Shown piece by piece: positions 12,061-62,116 of a stretch of DNA of 64,000 bases. The first letter of the stretch is position 1; the number at the start of each line of letters is the position of its first letter. Made by a program: the position numbers and the translations under genes. Source of the stretch: Corallococcus sp. NCRR (lineage in GTDB: Bacteria > Myxococcota > Myxococcia > Myxococcales > Myxococcaceae); assembly GCF_026965535.1 (NCBI RefSeq), contig NZ_CP114039.1, positions 2,356,001 through 2,420,000 of the forward strand, written 5' to 3'. The notes under the pieces are model-generated. The model was given only the letters and a program-made list of their open reading frames with translations. It made no database searches and was not told where the DNA came from.

Positions 12061-12088
12061 GATCATTTCTACGGGAGGGGTCTGACAT
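12061..12088 (-). promoter_or_regulatory. TGTCAGACCCCT element, copy A
   Basis: Read on the minus strand this is TGTCAGACCCCT followed by a GTAGAA-type box. The same 12-base head and a related box (GTTGGA) occur upstream of both GntR-type regulators (18851-18879 and 61727-61755). All three lie just upstream of a gene on the same strand, so a promoter or activator site is likely. The assignment is by comparison within this window only. Confidence 0.45.
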
Positions 12089-15140: not shown

Positions 15141-15980
15141 ATGGCTGACAACTCCAAGATTGAGTGGACGGACGCGACGTGGAACCCGGTGCGCGGCTGC
15201 GTGAAGCTGAGCCCCGGGTGCAAGCACTGCTACGCGGAGACGTTCGCGGAGCGGTTCCGGGGCGTGCCCGGGCACCCATATGAGCAGGGCTTCGACCTGA
15301 AGCTGATTCCGGGGAAGCTCGCCGAGCCGCTGCGCTGGAAGGCGCCCAAGCGCGTGTTCGTGAACTCGATGAGCGACCTGTTCCTCGACGACGTCCCGGA
15401 GGCGTACATCGAGACGGTGGCGCGGGTGATGGCGCTGGCGGACTGGCACACGTTCCAGGTGCTGACGAAGCGCGCGGAGCGGATGCAGCGGTTGTTGTCC
15501 ACGCGGCTCGCGTTCGCGGCGAGGCTGCCAAACGTCTGGTGGGGCGTGAGCGTGGAGGACCGCAAGTACGGCCTGCCGCGGGTGAAGCACCTGCAAGCGG
15601 CGCCCGCGCGGGTGCGCTTCCTGTCCATCGAGCCGCTCCTGGAGGACCTGGGCTCGGTGGACTTCACGGGCATCGACGGGGTGATTGTCGGAGGCGAGAG
15701 CGGCGCGAAGTCGAGGCCGTTGGACCCGGACTGGGTGCGCTCGGTGCGCGAGCAGTGTGACGCGGCGGGCGTGGCCTTCTTCTTCAAGCAGTGGGGCGGC
15801 AAGCGCAAGGCGGCGGCCGGGCGCGTGCTGGACGGGCGCACGTACGATGCGCTCCCCCGGAGCACAGCGGCGCCGTTCCCGGAGGACACCCGGCGCCTGC
15901 GCTTGCTGGAGGAGGCCGAAGCGCTGGCGGCCCCATGGCTGATGCCGCCAGGCTTGGTCAGCGCCGCCGCTTCAGCTTGA
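15141..15980 (+). CDS. DUF5131 (phage Gp37/Gp68-type) protein
   Basis: A 279-residue protein recognised by its opening IEWTDATWNPVRGCVKLSPGCKHCYAE and by FVNSMSDLFLDDVP, LTKRAERM, NVWWGVSVEDRK, FLSIEPLLEDLG and GGESGAKSRP. This set defines the DUF5131/Gp37-Gp68 family found in phages and many chromosomes. The conserved cysteines at the start (C...GCKHC) and TIM-barrel-like motif order suggest relation to radical-SAM-type barrels such as photoproduct lyase, but the activity is not known to me. No phage genes adjoin, so this is a chromosomal copy. Its 3' end overlaps the convergent LysR gene by 23 bases. Confidence 0.88.
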   Translation: MADNSKIEWTDATWNPVRGCVKLSPGCKHCYAETFAERFRGVPGHPYEQGFDLKLIPGKLAEPLRWKAPKRVFVNSMSDLFLDDVPEAYIETVARVMALADWHTFQVLTKRAERMQRLLSTRLAFAARLPNVWWGVSVEDRKYGLPRVKHLQAAPARVRFLSIEPLLEDLGSVDFTGIDGVIVGGESGAKSRPLDPDWVRSVREQCDAAGVAFFFKQWGGKRKAAAGRVLDGRTYDALPRSTAAPFPEDTRRLRLLEEAEALAAPWLMPPGLVSAAASA

Positions 15981-16854
15981 AGAAGTCGATGAGCGCCTTG
16001 AGCTTGGGCGCCACCTGGACGCGGCTGGGGTAGTAGAGGAAGAAGCCGGGGAGGGTGGCGGAGTACGGTTCGAGCACGCGCACGAGCCGCTTCTCCGCGA
16101 GCAGTTGCTGGACGCGGCTCTCCGGGACATAGGCGAGCCCCAGCCCGGCGACGGCGGCATCCAGCACCAGCTCCGCGTCATCGAACGTCACGAGGCCCTC
16201 GACGGCGGCCTCGATGCGCTTCCCGCCGTCGCTCAGCCCCCAGCGGAGGAGCCCGCCAGTGGTCCGGCTGCGATAGTTGATGCAGTCGTGGTCGCGCAGG
16301 TCGCGAGGGTGCTTCGGCTTGCCACGAGCCGCGAAGTACGCGGGCGAGCCCACCACGTGCATGACGATGTCGCCGCTCACGGGGATGGCGATCATCTCGC
16401 GGTCCACGAGCTCCCCGACGCGGAAGCCCGCGTCGAAGCCCTGCTGGACGATGTCGACGAGCGCGTCCTCCAGGTGGATGTCCACGCGGATGTCGGGATG
16501 GGCGGCGAGGAACTCCGCCAGGCGCGGGCCGAGCACCTCCTGGTAGCCATACCGGGGCAGGGTCAGGCGCAGCAGCCCCGTGGGCCGGTCGCGAAGCTCG
16601 CCCAGGGACTCGAAGGCGTCCTGCACGCCGTGCATCGCGGGTTCGAGCCGCGACAGGAAGCGCGCGCCGGCCTCGGTGAGGCCCACGCTGCGGGTGGTGC
16701 GTTGGAGGAGCCGCACGCCGACGCGCTCTTCCAGGGCCCGGAGGCTCTGGCTCACCGCGGAAGGGGTGACCCCGAGCTCCGACGCCGCGGTGGTGAAGCT
16801 GCGTCTGCGAGCCACCGCGAGGAAAGCCATCAGGCCGGAGAGGTCGTCGCGCAT
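15958..16854 (-). CDS. LysR family transcriptional regulator
   Basis: A 298-residue LysR regulator. The N-terminal winged helix is clear (LMAFLAVARRRSFTTAASELGVTPSAVSQSLRALEERVGVRLLQRTTRSVGLTEAG). The C-terminal periplasmic-binding-like domain follows from about residue 90 (LRLTLPRYGYQEVLGPRLAEFLAAHPDI). It is transcribed away from the SDR gene at 16942, the common arrangement in which a LysR protein controls its divergent neighbour and itself. The 87-base gap holds TAGCGTAGCTA, a possible T-N11-A-type site. The inducer is unknown. Confidence 0.93.
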   Translation of the reverse strand: MRDDLSGLMAFLAVARRRSFTTAASELGVTPSAVSQSLRALEERVGVRLLQRTTRSVGLTEAGARFLSRLEPAMHGVQDAFESLGELRDRPTGLLRLTLPRYGYQEVLGPRLAEFLAAHPDIRVDIHLEDALVDIVQQGFDAGFRVGELVDREMIAIPVSGDIVMHVVGSPAYFAARGKPKHPRDLRDHDCINYRSRTTGGLLRWGLSDGGKRIEAAVEGLVTFDDAELVLDAAVAGLGLAYVPESRVQQLLAEKRLVRVLEPYSATLPGFFLYYPSRVQVAPKLKALIDFFKLKRRR

Positions 16855-16941
16855 TCCTTAGCGTAGCTACAAAGTGCATCCAGAGACGACGCGTTTCGGA
16901 GCGAAGGGCCGGGGCGTACTTCATGGGCCACGGAGGCAGTC

Positions 16942-17775
16942 ATGAACGCACAGGGCAAGGTCTGGTTCGTCACGGGGTCGTCGTCGGGGTTTGGCCGCAA
17001 CATCGTGGAGGAGGTCATCGCCAGGGGGGAGCGCGTGGTCGCGACGGCGAGAGACCCGCGCACGCTGGAGGACCTGGTGGCGAGGGCCCCGGACCAGGTG
17101 CTCGCGCTCCGGCTGGACGTGACGAAGCCAGAGCAGGTGCAGGAGTCCATCACGGCGGCGCTGAAGCACTTCGGGGCCATCGACGTGCTGGTGAACAACG
17201 CGGGCTACACGGTGTTGGGCGCGGTGGAGGAGACGAGCGACGCGGAGCTGCGGGCGGTCTTCGAGCCGCTCTTCTTCGGAGCGGTGGCGATGACGCGAGC
17301 GGTGCTGCCGCACATGCGCGAGCGGCGGACGGGCATCCTCGTGCAGGTCTCGAGTCTGACCGGACTGGTCGGGTACCCGGGCGCGGGGGCGTACAGCGCG
17401 GCGAAGCACGCGCTGGAAGGCATCTCCGAAGCGCTGGCGAAAGAGGTCGCGCCCTTCGGAGTGAAGGTGCTCCTCGTGGAGCCGGGAATGTTCCGCACGA
17501 AGCTGCTGGGCTCCGGGTTCCGGCCGATGCCAGAGCTGCCTGCCTACGCGGAGTCGATGGGTCCCACGAGAGCCTGGGTGGCGCAGTCCGCCGGCACGCA
17601 GTCCGGGGACCCGGTGAAGGCCGCGAAGGCCATCGTGGACGCGGTGGCCGCCGGAGCCCCGACGCTGCGCTTGTTCCTGGGGTCGGACGCCCCGGCGGCC
17701 ATCCGCGAGAAGCTCGCGCAGGTGCAGGACGACGTGAACCGTACGGAGCAACTCGCACTGTCGATGGGCTTCTGA
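16942..17775 (+). CDS. Short-chain dehydrogenase/reductase
   Basis: A 277-residue classical SDR. The NAD(P) loop is TGSSSGFG near residue 11, the adenine-pocket Asp lies in LRLDVT, the NNAG motif is in VLVNNAGYT, and the catalytic set is Ser in QVSSLTG with YSAAK (Tyr, Lys). The ATG has GGAGGC upstream. Length and motifs fit the oxidoreductases often annotated as SDR next to LysR regulators in proteobacteria. The substrate cannot be deduced. The last 232 bases are overlapped antisense by the regulator ORF ending at 17544. Confidence 0.93.
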   Translation: MNAQGKVWFVTGSSSGFGRNIVEEVIARGERVVATARDPRTLEDLVARAPDQVLALRLDVTKPEQVQESITAALKHFGAIDVLVNNAGYTVLGAVEETSDAELRAVFEPLFFGAVAMTRAVLPHMRERRTGILVQVSSLTGLVGYPGAGAYSAAKHALEGISEALAKEVAPFGVKVLLVEPGMFRTKLLGSGFRPMPELPAYAESMGPTRAWVAQSAGTQSGDPVKAAKAIVDAVAAGAPTLRLFLGSDAPAAIREKLAQVQDDVNRTEQLALSMGF

Positions 17776-18827
17776 GCCGGGAGCCCCAGGAAACGGGCAA
17801 TGAACCGCCAGACGCGCGGAGCCCACCGGCCCACGTGAAGCAGTCCGCCCTCCCTTGGATGTTCCACGGCATGGGTCCGTTCACTGGCACTGGTGACTGG
17901 GGCATCGGACAAGCCTTCCAAGACCGTGCCCATCATGTCCTCGGCGCACGTCCCACCGGATTCGGATGGGACGCGCACCGCGAGTGCTGGAATCACCGAC
18001 ATCCCGTTGTCAGACTCCACGGGGGAGGCTTTCTCGTCGGGGCGAGTTGAGACCCCAGGCACCTCGGTGTCCCCGGTGACTGGCTCGCAGTGACTGTCCG
18101 GAGAGGGAGAGGCAGGCTCCTTGGGGGGAGGAGCGAAGGCGTTCAGGACGCGCTCGTCGCGCGCCTTGAGCAATGCCGGTAGCTCGTGCTGGAGGGGCTG
18201 TGGGTCGCGCTCGGACAGGATTCTCATGGCGCAGAGAGCCCACTCGCGTAGCGCCTCGCCACCCATGAAGGGCTGCAGCCGGGTTGCTCCTCCCAGGAAG
18301 GCCCGATGCAGGGACTGCACGAGGAGCACATGCCCGGGACGATCCGCCACCCGGGCCGCCAGCCGCAGCAACTCGAATTCCACCTGTGCGCAGTAGGTCC
18401 CATCCTCCCAGTGCGCCGCGTCCTGGAGCTGGAAGCACGTGTACCTCAGCCGGTCCAGGTCGAGGTCCGAGGCTCTCGCGCAGCAGTCAGCCAGAAGCTC
18501 CACCAGGACCTGCCGCTTGAGGCTGAAGTAGCCCTCCAAGAGCCGCTGTGCGTTCGGGGCGCGCACGTCATGCAGCCCCAGCCCCAGGTTCTCCAGCGTC
18601 AGCGACTCATCCATGGCCACCGCGCGCGTCCTGCGGCCAGGGTGCTGCACCACCAAGCCCCGCGCCGCCAGTCGACGCACCGCTTCGCGGAGGGTGCCTC
18701 TGCACACGTTGAATCGACGCGCCAGCTTCGCTTCCGGACCGAGCTGCCCACTCGGATGCACCCGTCCCAGCGCGATATCGCGCTCGAGCTGCTCCTCCAC
18801 GTACGCCACGAGTCCGCCTCGTCCCAT
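17544..18827 (-). CDS. GntR-type transcriptional regulator, copy 1, with run-on C-terminus
   Basis: About 427 residues from ATG 18827 (GGAGGGG six bases upstream; ATG 18833 is too close to it). Residues 1-70 are a GntR winged helix (PEAKLARRFNVCRGTLREAV, RRLAARGLVVQHPGRRTRAV). Residues about 80-235 are an all-helical effector domain (LLEGYFSLKRQVLVELLADC, PGHVLLVQSLHRAFLGGA). It is closely similar, almost line by line, to the protein at 60725-61702. That paralogue ends at about residue 325 (ALEDLFDCRSD), whereas here a similar ending (VLEGLSDAP) is followed by roughly 140 more residues of poor complexity that run antisense into the SDR gene. I infer loss of the original stop. The regulated genes are unknown. 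Confidence 0.8.
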   Translation of the reverse strand: MGRGGLVAYVEEQLERDIALGRVHPSGQLGPEAKLARRFNVCRGTLREAVRRLAARGLVVQHPGRRTRAVAMDESLTLENLGLGLHDVRAPNAQRLLEGYFSLKRQVLVELLADCCARASDLDLDRLRYTCFQLQDAAHWEDGTYCAQVEFELLRLAARVADRPGHVLLVQSLHRAFLGGATRLQPFMGGEALREWALCAMRILSERDPQPLQHELPALLKARDERVLNAFAPPPKEPASPSPDSHCEPVTGDTEVPGVSTRPDEKASPVESDNGMSVIPALAVRVPSESGGTCAEDMMGTVLEGLSDAPVTSASERTHAVEHPREGGLLHVGRWAPRVWRFIARFLGLPAQKPIDSASCSVRFTSSCTCASFSRMAAGASDPRNKRSVGAPAATASTMAFAAFTGSPDCVPADCATQALVGPIDSA

Positions 18828-18850
18828 CCCCATCCCCTCCTCGAATCAGC

Positions 18851-18879
18851 ATGGCCATCCAACCACAGGGGTCTGACAT
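18851..18879 (-). promoter_or_regulatory. TGTCAGACCCCT element, copy B, upstream of GntR copy 1
   Basis: On the minus strand TGTCAGACCCCT is followed by GTGGTTGGATGGCCAT, ending 24 bases before the regulator start. All 29 bases are identical to the copy at 61727-61755, and the head is identical to the copy at 12061-12088. The constant distance to the start codon suggests a promoter core. Confidence 0.55.
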
Positions 18880-18917
18880 GGACGTGCGGGCCCACCCTCC
18901 GGTGGCCCGGGCGGCTA

Positions 18918-18944
18918 AAACCTGTCCGACAGTCGGACAGGTTT
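18918..18944. repeat. 27-base perfect palindrome (AAACCTGTCCGAC-A-GTCGGACAGGTTT)
   Basis: Two 13-base arms, AAACCTGTCCGAC and GTCGGACAGGTTT, flank a single central A. It lies about 90 bases upstream of GntR copy 1. Closely related palindromes occur at 61804-61832 and 61944-61970, with a degenerate one at 60730-60753, all around GntR copy 2. It could be the operator of these regulators or a dispersed palindromic repeat. Confidence 0.85.
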
Positions 18945-18993
18945 CTGGAAAGCGCCTCCGGCGGGCGGCTTCTGTCCGTGCGGCGTGGATGGA

Positions 18994-19482
18994 TCAGATG
19001 GAAGGAAACCGCACTCCCGGCAGGACGAGCAGCTTCGCGCCCTCCGCGTCCTGGAGTTCCAACGTGTAGACGCCGCGAGCCTCCTGGGACTGCGCTTCGG
19101 CTTCCACAATGATCTGGGCGCTCTCGGCTTCGGACCCGGAAGCCACTTCGAGCACTTCCACGACCCTCAGGGTTTGATGATTCGGGCCGCGGAGGCTCGC
19201 CTTGGCGGCCTTGCTCGGAAGGGGCGTCCGCACGGAGAACTCCAGTTGCACCGCGACCCGGCGTGCGGAGCGGAAGCTTCTGACTTGGAACATTGCGCCC
19301 GAGGCTCCTGTTTCGGGAGCCTTTAGCTGCAACGTTTGAACTCCTCCTTGACCCAGAACCGCAGTGGACAGGATCGCCGCCAGCCCCACGTCGGGACAGG
19401 ACTGCTCGGAAAGCAGAGTGGCTGTGTCATCGGACACCCCTCCATCCGCGGCTGCGAGGAACGGAAGCAGGAACAGGAGCAT
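18994..19482 (-). CDS. DUF2381-like secreted protein, short form
   Basis: A 162-residue protein beginning with a signal peptide (MLLFLLPFLAAADGG). ATG 19482 has AGGAGG four bases upstream and lies eight bases after the kinase stop, so the two form an operon. The mature part (GQGGVQTLQLKAPETG ... IIVEAEAQSQEARGVYTLELQDAEGAKLLVLPGVRFP) matches the C-terminal half of the myxobacterial paralogous family DUF2381, whose members are typically near 290 residues and often sit beside membrane kinases. The usual N-terminal domain and coiled coil are missing, so this is a shortened variant. A role as extracytoplasmic partner of the kinase is inference. Confidence 0.65.
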   Translation of the reverse strand: MLLFLLPFLAAADGGVSDDTATLLSEQSCPDVGLAAILSTAVLGQGGVQTLQLKAPETGASGAMFQVRSFRSARRVAVQLEFSVRTPLPSKAAKASLRGPNHQTLRVVEVLEVASGSEAESAQIIVEAEAQSQEARGVYTLELQDAEGAKLLVLPGVRFPSI

Positions 19483-19490
19483 AGGTCCTC

Positions 19491-21296
19491 CTATTCGTCG
19501 TATCGCCACACGCCCCGGATGGACATCATGTTGGGAACAACGGCGGTGTTCTCATTTCCCCCCTCGCTGCGAGGAACACCCCGCGTGCGGTCATCCAGGA
19601 ACCAGAGTTCAATACAGACAGGAAATGTTTCACCGGTCTTGTTCTGACGCAGTTGCGTGAAACGGCCATAGACTCGTTTGGAACCGACGTAGAGCGTGCC
19701 CGTGAGCATGGAGCCGTGCCTTACGCGTCCCTCACTGCCGAGGGTGTACACAGCGGCACGTCCTTCTCGGACTGTAACGAAATCGGAGCGCGTATTTGGG
19801 TCAAATTTGGCGGCCCACTGGATTCCGTCAACCCTGAGCGCCTTCATGGCTGCCTTTGCATCCTCCGGACAGTCCTCCGCGGGAGGCGTGGGCCGGTCCA
19901 CCAGGGGAGCGCTGGCGCAGGCCATGCCCGCCATGCAGGACGCAAGCGTCGCGGCCTTGAGCGCACGAGCGGGTTTCGGAGACGGCGGGGCAGGGGGCTT
20001 GGTCGTCACGGGAGTGTGTTCCTCTTTCTGTGCCACCACGGGGGCGGCGACGGGAACACTGTGCGGGCGGTCCGGCGGGCTCGCCAGTTTATGACCAACA
20101 GGGGCGGAAAGACTATCCGAGACCTGGAGGGTTGTATGGCGAGTCCAGCCCCGCAGCAGGACCTCCCAGGTCCGGGGGCCCGCCAGCAGCAATCCCAGGC
20201 AGGCCACCACTCCCACCCAACCCCAGGCCGGCAACCGTCGCGGGGCCACCGGCTCGGGAACGGGCCGGGGCCTGGGCGCGGGTGTCAGGTAGGGCTGCGC
20301 GGGCCATGTCGGACGGCGGATCTGATTGGGCGTGCCCGGAATCTCGTCGAAGAGGTGCGCCTCGAACGCCGCCGCTCCACCCGAAAGCAGCCCCCGCATC
20401 AGCTCCGAGTGCGCCGCCTCCCCCGTGCGCGGGCGCTGCTCCGGCTCCTTCTCCAGCAGCCGCAGGATGGCCCTCGACAGGAGCTCCGGCACCTGGGGAT
20501 TGATGTCCCGGGGCGACGGCGGCAGCCGCTCCGTGATGGCCACCGCCAGCAGCTCCGGCTCCTGACCCGGTGGGAACGGGTAGTGCCCTGTCACGGCCCG
20601 GTAAAGGCACACACCCAGGGCATACAGGTCATCCGACTCCCGGTATGGGTAGCGCAGCTCCGGCTGCCTCCAGTGGCGCTGCTGGAAGCGGATGGCCTCC
20701 GGACTGCGCAGGTGCAGCGTCCCCGGGGGCAGGGTGGTGGTCGTCAACGTCGCGGCCCCCGTCTGGTCCCCGGCCCCGAAGTCGATGAGCACCGGCACCT
20801 GCTCCCTCGCGCGGACCAGGATGTGCTCCGGCTTCAGGTCGCGGTGCAGCACGCCTCGCGCGTGCAACACCCCCAGCGTCATCGCCACCGAGCCGCCCAC
20901 CATCGCCACCTGACGGAACGTGGGGTTGAACGTCTCCGTCCAGAGGTGGAGCGCCAGCCCCTCCACGCAGTCCATGACGAAGTACGGCAACCCCTCCACC
21001 GGATCCGGCCATCGCCCCGTGGCATGCACCCGCACCACGTTCGGATGCCACGCCCGGTCCAGCAACAGCGCCATCTCCCGCAGCGCCCGGGCCGGGTCCG
21101 GATGCAGCGACAGCTTGAGCGCGAAGCTCCGCCCCGGCGCGTCCAGGGGCTCCACCCGATAGACCGCGCCGTACCCGCCCACCCCCAGCGTCCCCTGCAC
21201 GCGCCAGCGCCCCACCTCCGCGCCGGGCTGGAGCGCCCCCGGGAACACCTGTGACCCTTCCTGACCCATGGACCCGGAGAGTCGCATGACTTTCAC
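19491..21296 (-). CDS. Transmembrane Ser/Thr protein kinase (Hanks type)
   Basis: About 601 residues from GTG 21296; ATG 21287 is an equal alternative. Kinase motifs are the G-loop GVGGYG (38-43), VAIK-type Lys61 in FALKL, HRDLKPEHIL (151-160), DFG (172-174), and SPE as the APE equivalent. DDLYALGVCLYRAVTGHYPF is typical of bacterial Pkn proteins. After a Pro-rich juxtamembrane stretch there is one transmembrane helix (WVGVVACLGLLLAG), then an extracytoplasmic part containing CMAGMACASAPLVDRPTPPAEDCP and a 100-residue domain that recurs in myxobacterial kinases. The second half is likely the sensor. It is followed at once by the DUF2381-like gene. Confidence 0.93.
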   Translation of the reverse strand: MKVMRLSGSMGQEGSQVFPGALQPGAEVGRWRVQGTLGVGGYGAVYRVEPLDAPGRSFALKLSLHPDPARALREMALLLDRAWHPNVVRVHATGRWPDPVEGLPYFVMDCVEGLALHLWTETFNPTFRQVAMVGGSVAMTLGVLHARGVLHRDLKPEHILVRAREQVPVLIDFGAGDQTGAATLTTTTLPPGTLHLRSPEAIRFQQRHWRQPELRYPYRESDDLYALGVCLYRAVTGHYPFPPGQEPELLAVAITERLPPSPRDINPQVPELLSRAILRLLEKEPEQRPRTGEAAHSELMRGLLSGGAAAFEAHLFDEIPGTPNQIRRPTWPAQPYLTPAPRPRPVPEPVAPRRLPAWGWVGVVACLGLLLAGPRTWEVLLRGWTRHTTLQVSDSLSAPVGHKLASPPDRPHSVPVAAPVVAQKEEHTPVTTKPPAPPSPKPARALKAATLASCMAGMACASAPLVDRPTPPAEDCPEDAKAAMKALRVDGIQWAAKFDPNTRSDFVTVREGRAAVYTLGSEGRVRHGSMLTGTLYVGSKRVYGRFTQLRQNKTGETFPVCIELWFLDDRTRGVPRSEGGNENTAVVPNMMSIRGVWRYDE

Positions 21297-21527
21297 TCAA
21301 CCTGGAAGGTCAGCCGGGGCAGAGGGCCGGAGGCAACCTGGGGCCGTGTGCTCCCAAGTCAGGAAGTCTCGCCTCGTGGGGCCAGGCGGAATGCCCCCAG
21401 CGGAACACGTCTGCGGTGACTGAAATGTGACATGAGCGAAGCGCGTATCGGGCCAGTGGCGTCAGACGGATTTGATGTATTAAGCCGCGTCTCATCGCAG
21501 CACTCCCCCCTCATTCAGGAGTTCCTG

Positions 21528-22559
21528 ATGCGTCGTCTTGGCTCAGCCCTTCTCGCCGTGAGCATGCTCGTTGGTTGCGGTCCTGGTACCCAGGCGGAGA
21601 CTCCCCCCGAGTCCGCGCCGGCCGCCGAGCAGCAGCAGCAGGCCCCCATCCTCACGACGACGAACGTCGACGTGGCCATCGAGTGCTCGGGCATCCTCGA
21701 GTTCGCGAACACGGCGTCGTACTCGCTCCTCGACCGCTACCTGCCCAGCAACGTGGTCACCAACATCGTGAACCGCCGCGCCACCGCGCCGTTCACGTCG
21801 CTGGCGGACCTGTCCTCCGTGCCGCTCGTCGGCCCGGCCCGGCTCAAGCAGTTGGAGGGCGGCGCCCGGACGATGGACTTCATCGACGCGGACTGTGTCG
21901 GCATCATGGATGGCATCGCCATCTCCCGTGACGACCAGACCGCCATCGTCGCGCTGGTGAACAGCATCGACGACTCGGAGCTGCATGACGTCCTTCCGGA
22001 CGCGTGGAACGGCGCCGTCAACCTGCTCAACACGCGCCCCTTCACCACCGCGCAGCAGATCTCCGACACGGCGGGCATCGGTGACGTGAGCTTCCGCAAC
22101 ATCCGCAACTCCGCCACCCTGAGCCGCCCGCTGGAGGCGCTCTTCTCCGCCATCAACGCCATCCCCTCCAACGGCTCCTATGGCGCCACCACGCTGCGCC
22201 ACTTCGACTGGTGGAACATCGCGTCCGCCGGCCACTACTACCGTGACGACAAGACCTGCTTCGGCCTGGAGCCGAGCAGCGTCCCCTCCGGCGCCGCCAT
22301 CCGCCCGAACCTGGCCGACGCCGCCGAGGTGCGCGCCGCGGTCGCGAACGCCTTCAACTACGTCGGCGGCAATACCAAGGTCTCCGCTGCGGTCCGCGAC
22401 GCGGGCTTCGCGAACCTGGACGCGCTGACCCAGGGCCGCTCCTTCAAGGGCTGCATCATCACCTACGAGAACGACCCCTGGAGCCGCAACACCGTCCACA
22501 TCTACGTGGACACCGTGAACGGCTTCAGCGTGATGACCGAGACCTGGTGGGCGGAGTAG
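21528..22559 (+). CDS. Lipoprotein with two helix-hairpin-helix repeats
   Basis: A 343-residue lipoprotein. ATG 21528 follows CAGGAG by six bases, and the lipobox is LVGC (Cys17). Two ComEA-like helix-hairpin-helix units are visible: VVTNIVNRRATAPFTSLADL with VPLVGPARLKQLE, and AVNLLNTRPFTTAQQISDTAGIG. Such motifs bind DNA without sequence specificity in ComEA and some nucleases. The C-terminal 150 residues (HFDWWNIASAGHYYRDDKTCFG ... CIITYENDPWSRNTVHIYVD) are unrecognised and contain two cysteines. An extracellular DNA-binding lipoprotein is a reasonable inference. No competence genes adjoin. Confidence 0.75.
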   Translation: MRRLGSALLAVSMLVGCGPGTQAETPPESAPAAEQQQQAPILTTTNVDVAIECSGILEFANTASYSLLDRYLPSNVVTNIVNRRATAPFTSLADLSSVPLVGPARLKQLEGGARTMDFIDADCVGIMDGIAISRDDQTAIVALVNSIDDSELHDVLPDAWNGAVNLLNTRPFTTAQQISDTAGIGDVSFRNIRNSATLSRPLEALFSAINAIPSNGSYGATTLRHFDWWNIASAGHYYRDDKTCFGLEPSSVPSGAAIRPNLADAAEVRAAVANAFNYVGGNTKVSAAVRDAGFANLDALTQGRSFKGCIITYENDPWSRNTVHIYVDTVNGFSVMTETWWAE

Positions 22560-60689: not shown

Positions 60690-60724
60690 GTCTGTCATTA
60701 GCGGGCCGTTGGAGGCGCGGCGCC

Positions 60725-61702
60725 TCAATCTGACCGACAGTCGAACAGGTCTTCCAAGGCCACATCGGGCACGCTCTTCTCGGTGCATTCCCGTCGGAGT
60801 TCGCCGACGAGGGCGTCCGGTGCCGTGTCCTGCTCCGCGGTCGACACAGGGCCGTCGAATCCATGCTCTTCCTGCGCAGGGGCTGACATGGGAGCGCCGA
60901 AGTCACATTCCTCCGTGCAGGGGCGTTTCTCTGGTGTGGAGTCCTGCGGGGTTGATGACACGGGGGGAACGTGGGCCTCGGGTGATGCCTGTTCCTTGGC
61001 CGCGGGGACAAAGGCGTCCAGCACTCGCTCGTCGCACGCCTTCAGCAGCGCTGGGAGCTCGTGATGAAGTGCCTGTGTGTCGCGCTCGTGCAGGATCGCC
61101 ATCACGCGGAAGGCCCACTCGCGCAGCGCCTCTCCGCCCAGATGAGGCAGCAGTTGGGCGGCTCCTCCCAGGAAGGCCCGCTGCAGGGACTGAACGAGGA
61201 GCACGTGCCCGGGACGTGCCGCCACTCGCGCTGCCTGCCGCAGCAACTCGAATTCCGCCTGCGCGCAGGCTTCCCCCGACTCCCAGCGCGCCGCGTCCTG
61301 AAGCCGGAAGCACGCGCTCCCCAGCCGGTCCAGGTCGAGGTCCGAAGCTTTCTCGCAGCAGTCGACCAGCAGCTCCACCAGCACCTGCCGCTTGAGGCTG
61401 AAGTAGCCCTCCAGAAGCCACCGGGCATCCGGGTTGCTCGCGTCATGCAGCGCCAGGCCCAGGTTCTCCAATGTCAGCGATTCATCCAGCGGCACCGCGC
61501 GCGTCTTGCGTCCGGGGCGCTGCACCACCAGGCCCCGCGCCGCCAGCCGTCGCAGCGCCTCGCGGATGGTGCCCCGGCATACCTCATAGCGCCGCGCCAG
61601 CTTCGCTTCGGAGCCGAACTGCCCGCTCGGGTGCAGCCGCCCCAGCGCGATATCGCGCTCGATTTGCGCCTCCACATAGGCCACGAGCCCTCGCCGTTCC
61701 AT
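60725..61702 (-). CDS. GntR-type transcriptional regulator, copy 2
   Basis: 325 residues from ATG 61702 (AGGAAGGGG upstream; ATG 61708 is nearer the site). It is closely similar to the regulator at 17544-18827: winged helix EAKLARRYEVCRGTIREALRRLAARGLVV, then EGYFSLKRQVLVELLVDCCEKASDLDLDRLGSACFRLQDAARWE and GHVLLVQSLQRAFLGGAAQLLPHLGGEALREWAFRVMAIL. The C-terminal 90 residues are acidic and low complexity, ending ALEDLFDCRSD. The last codons and stop lie inside a degenerate copy of the palindrome repeat (60730-60753). Three palindromes and the TGTCAGACCCCT element lie around it. The effector ligand is unknown. Confidence 0.85.
   Translation of the reverse strand: MERRGLVAYVEAQIERDIALGRLHPSGQFGSEAKLARRYEVCRGTIREALRRLAARGLVVQRPGRKTRAVPLDESLTLENLGLALHDASNPDARWLLEGYFSLKRQVLVELLVDCCEKASDLDLDRLGSACFRLQDAARWESGEACAQAEFELLRQAARVAARPGHVLLVQSLQRAFLGGAAQLLPHLGGEALREWAFRVMAILHERDTQALHHELPALLKACDERVLDAFVPAAKEQASPEAHVPPVSSTPQDSTPEKRPCTEECDFGAPMSAPAQEEHGFDGPVSTAEQDTAPDALVGELRRECTEKSVPDVALEDLFDCRSD
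60730..60753. repeat. Degenerate palindrome copy at the 3' end of GntR copy 2
   Basis: CTGACCGACAGTCGAACAGGTCT differs at a few positions from the 18918 palindrome core. It encodes the C-terminal residues and precedes the stop codon of GntR copy 2, so the repeat and the coding end coincide. Confidence 0.6.
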
Positions 61703-61726
61703 CCCCATCCCCTTCCTCGTTCCAGC

Positions 61727-61755
61727 ATGGCCATCCAACCACAGGGGTCTGACAT
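61727..61755 (-). promoter_or_regulatory. TGTCAGACCCCT element, copy C, upstream of GntR copy 2
   Basis: Identical over its 29 bases to copy B at 18851-18879, and it ends 25 bases upstream of the GntR copy 2 start, against 24 for copy 1. The conserved spacing supports a promoter role. Confidence 0.6.
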
Positions 61756-61803
61756 GGACGTGCGCGCCTGCCGAGCCAGCGCGCCCCCGGGCGGCATGGG
61801 GCG

Positions 61804-61832
61804 AAAACCTGTCCGACAGTCGGACAGGTTTT
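61804..61832. repeat. 29-base perfect palindrome upstream of GntR copy 2
   Basis: Arms AAAACCTGTCCGAC (61804-61817) and GTCGGACAGGTTTT (61819-61832) flank a central A. It is the 18918-18944 palindrome extended by one base per arm, and lies about 100 bases upstream of the regulator start. Confidence 0.85.
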
Positions 61833-62116
61833 GAGGCAATCGGGCCCGGGCGGGCGCCTCCATCCGTGCCCCACGTTGGCGTTCGCGCACGCACGAGGTC
61901 GCGCTTCCGCCGAACCGGCGTGGACTCGGGGCACATGCGGCGGAACCCTGTCCGACAGTCGGGCGGGTTTTGCGGCAACCGGGCAGGTGCCGCTGCTCGT
62001 TTCCCGTCTTGCCGCCCGTGCACGCCTCCATCGCAGCGCTCCGTGAGGCGTGCATCCTCGCGGAGGACTTCGGGGCGCAGGACTTGTTCACGGGCCGCTG
62101 GCCGCCTGCGTGGGGT
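61833..62116. other. Non-coding region between GntR copy 2 and the oxidoreductase gene
   Basis: Together with 61703-61832 this is a gap of over 400 bases without a gene. It contains the palindromes and TGTCAGACCCCT element given separately; the remaining sequence is GC-rich with no further signal that I can support. Confidence 0.6.
61944..61970. repeat. Variant palindrome copy upstream of GntR copy 2
   Basis: AACCCTGTCCGAC - A - GTCGGGCGGGTTT, differing by one base in the left arm and two in the right arm from the perfect form. Centre about 139 bases from the copy at 61804-61832. Confidence 0.75.

Follow-up and report, generated by a model that had tools for sequence, protein, structure and literature searches.

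A FadR-like GntR regulator and a dispersed palindromic repeat that may have multiplied together in Corallococcus

Why do two similar GntR regulator genes in one stretch of a Corallococcus genome both lie downstream of a long perfect palindrome and an identical promoter-like element? Dispersed bacterial repeats are usually associated with transposases. In Corallococcus, a soil predator bacterium, a transcription regulator travels with the repeat instead, so that each cell may carry roughly a dozen similar regulators with as many as 200 or so possible sites. The window, meaning the whole 64-kb stretch of DNA analysed here (G000:C1:2356001–2420000), belongs to a genome searched as a single contig of 9,787,125 bases, and was set beside 15 comparison genomes of the same genus (G001–G015). 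The listed titles and abstract openings held no report of the repeat or of the gene family in Corallococcus. The arrangement is real and structured beyond what an initial annotation of the window had described. It suggests that regulator and repeat have multiplied together, as many near-copies of the gene, each with a damage-type promoter and a palindrome that is also scattered genome-wide.

Two regulator copies and their upstream DNA

The features of the window, with positions numbered from its first base, are as follows.

12066–12087, minus strand: third 12-mer, followed by TAGAAA at the same spacing; by eye the same kind of promoter, with no palindrome
17547–18827, minus strand: GntR copy 1, FadR-like (PF00392, E = 1.3e-12; alignment A1), conserved part approximately 18066–18827
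18857–18878, minus strand: promoter of copy 1, TGTCAGACCCCTGTGGTTGGAT, upstream motif plus extended −10
18918–18944, no strand: perfect palindrome of 27 bp, made up of two GTC-S-GAC dyads and lying 39 bp upstream from the element
60690–62116, minus strand: copy 2 module, which occupies the interval between two convergent stop codons and is not present in G001 or G003
60725–61708, minus strand: GntR copy 2, FadR-like (PF00392, E = 1.1e-12; alignment A1; fold match FadR), conserved part approximately 60941–61702
60729–60749, no strand: degenerate palindrome core with 3 mismatches, at the 3′ end of copy 2
61733–61754, minus strand: promoter of copy 2, TGTCAGACCCCTGTGGTTGGAT
61804–61832, no strand: perfect palindrome of 29 bp, 49 bp upstream of the element
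61947–61967, no strand: variant palindrome core with 2 mismatches, 139 bp further upstream

The open frame of copy 1 spans 17544–18833 and, because its last part runs antisense to an SDR gene (16942–17775), the true end of this gene is uncertain. The initial annotation had reported the two perfect palindromes, the variant and the degenerate copy, and an identical element at both regulators, all of which are present. The 27-base palindrome at 18918–18944 is AAACCTGTCCGACAGTCGGACAGGTTT, and both perfect palindromes are symmetric around one central base. The element is a 12-mer found at 18867–18878, 61743–61754 and 12076–12087, in each case on the minus strand. Palindrome and element, placed about 40 and 50 bases apart by the annotation, are separated by 39 and 49 bases. 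Its element-to-start distances of 24 and 25 bases need correction to 33 and 34 bases to the first ATG, or 39 and 40 to the second, with the one-base difference between the copies standing. The third 12-mer (12076–12087) precedes a small open reading frame without a Pfam family and adjoins neither a palindrome nor a GntR gene. Another 12-mer without a palindrome, at G000:C1:2020729, lies before a protein that by eye looks like Uma2.

Both regulators are GntR paralogues, as had been proposed, with a winged helix-turn-helix at the N-terminus that scores 47.6 and 47.8 bits against PF00392 (cut-off 27). The wider family is represented by 68 GntR rows, namely those that span the greater part of the conserved region once fragments and near-duplicates had been removed, and 45 of them were the input for alignment A1 and for a structure model. 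In this model (pLDDT 82, pTM 0.63) the second domain is all-helical, and the top fold match is the FadR–DNA complex 1hw1 (E = 2.5e-6), with NanR also among the best; these FadR and NanR matches are modest (TM 0.33–0.46, rmsd above 9 over both domains). The Pfam search returned no FCD family, and NCBIfam FadR matches were weak and far below cut-off. In a search of genome contigs, all 19 named relatives of the protein come from Corallococcus, and the GntR proteins of two other genera (G018 and G029) show 49–53% identity. The tails are hypervariable. Many paralogues end in a hydrophobic and basic stretch resembling LGRWAARLWRFIAxSLGLPAS after a variable linker (for example, at approximately 17700–18000, minus strand), and this conserved C-terminal stretch is perhaps an amphipathic helix. 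A phage or plasmid origin of the regulator was considered and rejected, with no tblastn match at E 1e-5 among 50,697 phage and 72,556 plasmid records.

Chance is ruled out as the origin of element and palindromes by shuffles, simulated windows and genome-wide controls. The 12-mer appeared in none of 100 shuffles, and 20 stretches of 64 kb simulated from the same base-to-base transitions held no palindrome site with up to three mismatches, 6 with four and 64 with five. Across the whole genome, the palindrome pattern at up to three mismatches has 189 forward and 188 reverse matches, compared with 2 and 2 for the backwards control. The roughly 190 sites, partly in arrays and near gene 3′ ends, form a repeat family, and a general repeat in thousands of copies, randomly placed, is excluded by these counts, which are in the hundreds and clustered.

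The FadR-like GntR gene itself is present in eight copies in this genome and gives 0–15 matches in the 15 congeners. The exact 12-mer occurs ten times genome-wide, with a palindrome just upstream in eight cases, and in those eight TTGGAT follows eight bases past TGTCAGAC. Seven of the eight palindrome-linked 12-mers precede GntR paralogues; the other linked copy is an orphan at 832080, and the eighth paralogue carries a one-base variant of the 12-mer, TGTCAGACCCCC. Palindrome and element recur together, as the annotation had anticipated, at all eight GntR copies. The clustering near GntR paralogues that it proposed to check holds at every copy of the gene but not for most palindrome loci, as 6 of the 29 listed mismatch-free palindrome loci are at GntR genes.

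The promoter element

With good support from sequence comparison, the 12-mer forms the upstream motif in a promoter with the layout TGTCAGAC-N5-TGn-TNNNAT; its earlier description as promoter-like is borne out by placement, an extended −10 and conservation across genera. The element is present in 64 of the 68 GntR rows. Three of the misses have too little upstream DNA at contig ends, and the one row in which it is truly missing is from G022, a third and more distant genus. It starts 51–59 bp before the gene in all 59 Corallococcus rows with enough upstream DNA, and 54–56 bp before it in all five rows of G018 and G029. TGTCAG, T13, G14 and T21 are invariant in all 64 elements, with T13–G14 forming the extended −10, and most GntR copies have TTGGAT rather than TANNNT as their −10 hexamer.

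The same promoter class is found at other genes. Setting aside the GntR copies with TTGGAT, TGTCAGAC-N8-TANNNT occurs eight times in the genome and not at all in the backwards control; when the centre base is left free, there are 13 matches versus 2 in the control, with A in 8, G in 4, C in 1 and T in none. Among the genes downstream are those of an HD-domain protein (Pfam HD), dGTPase-like by eye, and of what are presumably a MoxR-type ATPase, a VWA protein and an XRE regulator.

This form resembles TGTCRGTG-N8-TANNNT, which we take to be the mycobacterial RecA-NDp promoter, read by PafBC. The hexamer spacing in the GntR copies equals that of the RecA-NDp consensus, and the second base of TTGGAT does not fit. 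The genome has five WYL matches, two of which (3558089 and 3559081) lie about 1 kb apart on the same strand. In Myxococcus xanthus, the WYL proteins MXAN_1359/1360 rise 1.5–1.7-fold under mitomycin C and, when lexA is mutated, 3.4-fold (PMC12288472). The promoter may belong to the PafBC type, an assignment less well supported than its identity as a promoter.

Viral loci contain the same spacing. The viral set comprises at least 120 IMG/VR loci with TGTCAGACCCC-N5-TANNNT and was selected by this spacing itself. Among the 120 viral loci listed, TGTCAGAC-N8-TANNNT has 260 matches, compared with 0–10 at spacings 4–7 and 9–12, and TGTC[AG]GTG-N8-TANNNT, which was not selected for, has 231, compared with 0–16 at the same alternative spacings; because the loci were chosen by their TGTCAGACCCC spacing, selection bears on the first of these results and not on the TGTCRGTG one. 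Both motifs give smaller counts at spacings 3, 13 and 14, of 12–49 each, and TGTCCGAC and TGTCGGAC at spacing 8 occur once and not at all, again among the 120 loci listed. Promoters of the PafBC type appear to be widely used by viruses. From locus L204 onward, TGTCAGACCCC-N5-TANNNT is common in viral contigs, mostly with the extended −10 TG and often several times per contig, and these copies adjoin copies of TGTCRGTG-N8-TANNNT. The exact palindrome was not found in viral contigs. The promoter link suggests that a PafBC-like damage response reaches the myxobacteria and is in wide use among viruses.

The palindromic repeat and its connection with the regulator

The palindrome follows the pattern GTC-S-GAC-W-GTC-S-GAC, that is, two dyads with centres 8 bp apart. 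We aligned 134 sites with up to four mismatches from the own-genome DNA examined, using a consensus that left C or G free at positions 7 and 15. G4, G8 and C18 are invariant in these sites, C14 is kept in 133 and G12 in 132. An excerpt of PMC2230225 gives TNGTNNNACNA as the FadR-type operator consensus; its core, GTNNNAC, occurs twice per palindrome, and the palindrome's outer bases do not fit. Because each dyad has this core of FadR-type operators, binding of the dyads by GntR is predicted.

The genomic context of the palindromes was analysed in the window and 38 further stretches of the same genome, with genes called by a home-made script. The stretches cover all listed mismatch-free loci outside the window, two further GntR loci, eight loci taken from a longer set with one mismatch, and one element-only locus. 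Only 1 of the 44 palindrome clusters lies inside a called gene; with this one and the 11 near GntR genes excluded, 32 were classed, and palindrome gaps were excluded from the background. The 32 clusters occupy 10 convergent, 19 codirectional and 3 divergent gaps, versus 21, 122 and 78 of 221 in the background, so that convergent gaps are enriched (Fisher p approximately 0.002) and divergent gaps likewise depleted. Among facing 3′ ends, 37 of 39 are at most 153 bp from a palindrome cluster.

On a classical reading, both palindrome and element would be GntR operators, serving autoregulation and a regulon near other promoters. GTCNGAC is found in both, holding the FadR-type operator core (consensus as excerpted from PMC2230225), and all eight own GntR copies carry the pair. 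We consider this reading unlikely, however, since the element has A as its centre base and the palindrome has C or G (the consensus for the 134 sites having left C and G free), other genes and viral loci show the same distance from element to −10, and the avoidance of divergent gaps argues against a classical operator at target promoters. Judged by their centre bases, element and palindrome are two different signals.

The location of the sites, together with a GC-rich repeat that has A on its left and T on its right, agrees with a palindrome that is an extragenic repeat or a weak two-way terminator collecting at gene ends. The GntR gene would then be an unrelated passenger, with flanks carried along by duplication and gene conversion. 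Array periods are genome-specific (near 70 or 140 bp in this genome, near 50 bp in G013), most palindrome loci lack a GntR gene and most gene copies are homogenised, all of which this account accommodates. The spacers inside arrays look mutually related by eye. The conservation pattern makes it a rather unlikely account nonetheless. The best-conserved bases would form the loop of a hairpin, so protein–DNA binding fits better than a terminator, and on this pattern we disfavour an RNA hairpin as the conserved unit. C or G stands at positions 7 and 15 whether or not the two would pair (CG 81, CC 26, GG 23), leaving C/C or G/G unpaired in 49 of 134 sites. The outer pair 3/19 is T–C in 17 sites and G–A in 9 and shows no paired double change; other pairs yield few of them (two at 2/20 and one each at 6/16, 9/13 and 10/12). 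T follows the repeat in 93, 90, 65 and 43% of cases at the next four places, which is a short run. Symmetric outer variants of the palindrome upstream of copies in G001 and G011 suit a dimer site and a hairpin alike.

A passenger gene is also hard to reconcile with the regularity of the linkage. A palindrome (up to five mismatches) lies within 260 bp upstream of all 59 Corallococcus GntR rows, although the eight modules, at about 1.4 kb each, make up about 0.1% of the genome; by the same measure it is found at none of the five rows in G018 and G029, which keep both gene and element. In 27 modules of three genomes, the nearest palindrome and the element are 86–95 bp apart, start to start, in 22 and 60–74 bp apart in 5, so their spacing is not strictly fixed; these are 27 of 28 modules, the remaining one having TGTCAGCC. 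A second palindrome (up to four mismatches) occurs in 16 of the 28, in the 1.5 kb that follow the gene's conserved part. Numbers of GntR matches and palindromes per genome are correlated over 16 Corallococcus genomes (Spearman 0.76), a value confounded by kinship and fragmented assemblies, and G014 has 9–10 palindromes and no GntR match. In G022, the GntR relative at locus L143, which lacks the element, is preceded by a similar palindrome, AACTGGTCCGATGGTCGGACCAGTT, at a distance of about 200 bp.

Taken as a whole, the feature would be the control region of a multicopy module that consists of a FadR-like GntR gene, its own promoter and a palindrome upstream and often downstream, a reading we regard as evenly balanced between right and wrong.

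Module turnover, a possible mechanism and known systems

Modules differ between species, as sequence comparison shows most directly at copy 2, whose site is cleanly empty in two relatives. The copy 2 module, about 1.4 kb long, is flanked by a convergent pair, an AraC-type gene and a Gfo/Idh/MocA gene, and a few bases separate these two genes in G001 and G003, where no trace of the module is seen. The left flank was found in 11 relatives. GntR follows it in G009, G004 and partly G010, and no GntR sequence was present within 1.5 kb of neighbouring DNA in the other 8. In G010, the two flanks are on separate contigs, C31 and C28 (loci L080 and L093), each with part of the module, reflecting either a rearrangement or an assembly break at the repeat. 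The copy 1 site (window positions 15958–22559) varies in content and lies next to a kinase/DUF2381 gene pair; its flanks are approximately 8, 2.6 and 3.7 kb apart in G013, G011 and G004, with no GntR match listed between them.

Copies within a genome resemble each other partly because they evolve in concert. In a gene tree of 28 copies (8 own, 12 from G009 and 8 of the 9 from G013), the eight G013 copies form one clade (100/99), although six of them are at positions common to G009 copies, and own copy 2 joins two other own copies (100/97) rather than its positional counterpart in G009. Own copy 1 behaves differently, joining the G009 copy at its own position (100/100), so not every copy has been homogenised. 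Most copies within a genome evolve in concert, as their placement in the tree indicates. The initial statement that the upstream DNA is more conserved than expected cannot stand as put, since concerted evolution partly explains it; with copies mostly clustering by genome despite common positions, likeness between them is weak evidence of function, and the better evidence is conservation across genera and across the scattered repeat sites.

These data also bear on whether the modules move at all. They might instead be an old duplicated gene set, lost in some lineages and homogenised by gene conversion, which we hold to be possible but somewhat improbable. Three of the eight own GntR positions are common to both G009 and G013 and three more are shared with G009 on one or both sides, no duplicated target bases were seen at the copy 2 site, and the orphan element at 832080 looks like a loss: its 135 bp match palindrome, promoter and start at 76% identity without GntR coding sequence. 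(This module match, with no significant GntR coding remnant, also rules out a different target gene at 832080.) The difficulty is that copy 2 GntR is missing in 8 of 11 relatives and that G001 and G003 keep no remnant, as repeated loss would need to be exact to leave clean empty sites.

Returning to the multicopy module, we infer the following course of events. A PafBC-like pair of WYL activators would turn the promoter on after DNA damage, and a GntR dimer would bind the dyads; bound GntR may then limit its own expression and occupy the scattered repeats near gene ends, and gene conversion between copies would preserve their likeness. In its fullest form, the regulator and its own binding repeat would have multiplied together as a transposase-free selfish unit, with a phage-type damage promoter, bracketing dyads that it binds and repeats spread to gene ends across Corallococcus genomes, where bound regulator would form a boundary or roadblock, the whole kept uniform by gene conversion. 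This fullest form is a speculation that we think more probably wrong than right by a wide measure. If GntR does bind the repeats, Corallococcus would offer a direct test of the co-amplification of a regulator and its sites.

Several known systems share parts of this arrangement. Corynebacterium glutamicum GntR1 and GntR2 are likewise a redundant pair of FadR-type paralogues, of which one lies in a prophage region, but they are two copies with ordinary promoter operators, and no repeat family is mentioned in the excerpts (PMC2230225). With E. coli FadR and its subfamily, the regulator shares the GntR winged helix-turn-helix and, in the structure model, an all-helical C-terminal domain, and its putative sites have the dyad core GTNNNAC; it differs in having up to 15 matches per genome, a tail that is hypervariable, no Pfam FCD, and possible sites that lie in arrays and close to gene ends. 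The promoter resembles mycobacterial RecA-NDp (PafB–PafC) in its TGTC-A/G-G motif and TANNNT at the same spacing, and adjacent WYL genes are present here, whereas AGACCCC replaces RGTG and the hexamer of the GntR copies is mostly TTGGAT. REP/BIME repeats are dispersed extragenic palindromes tied to RAYT transposases. A RAYT/REP system was ruled out here, as the genome has no match to the Y1 transposase family (PF01797), which is present in 5 of 14 control genomes. The likeness to REP/BIME–RAYT lies in palindromes that are dispersed outside genes, clustered and tied to a multicopy gene; unlike in that system, the gene is a regulator rather than a transposase.
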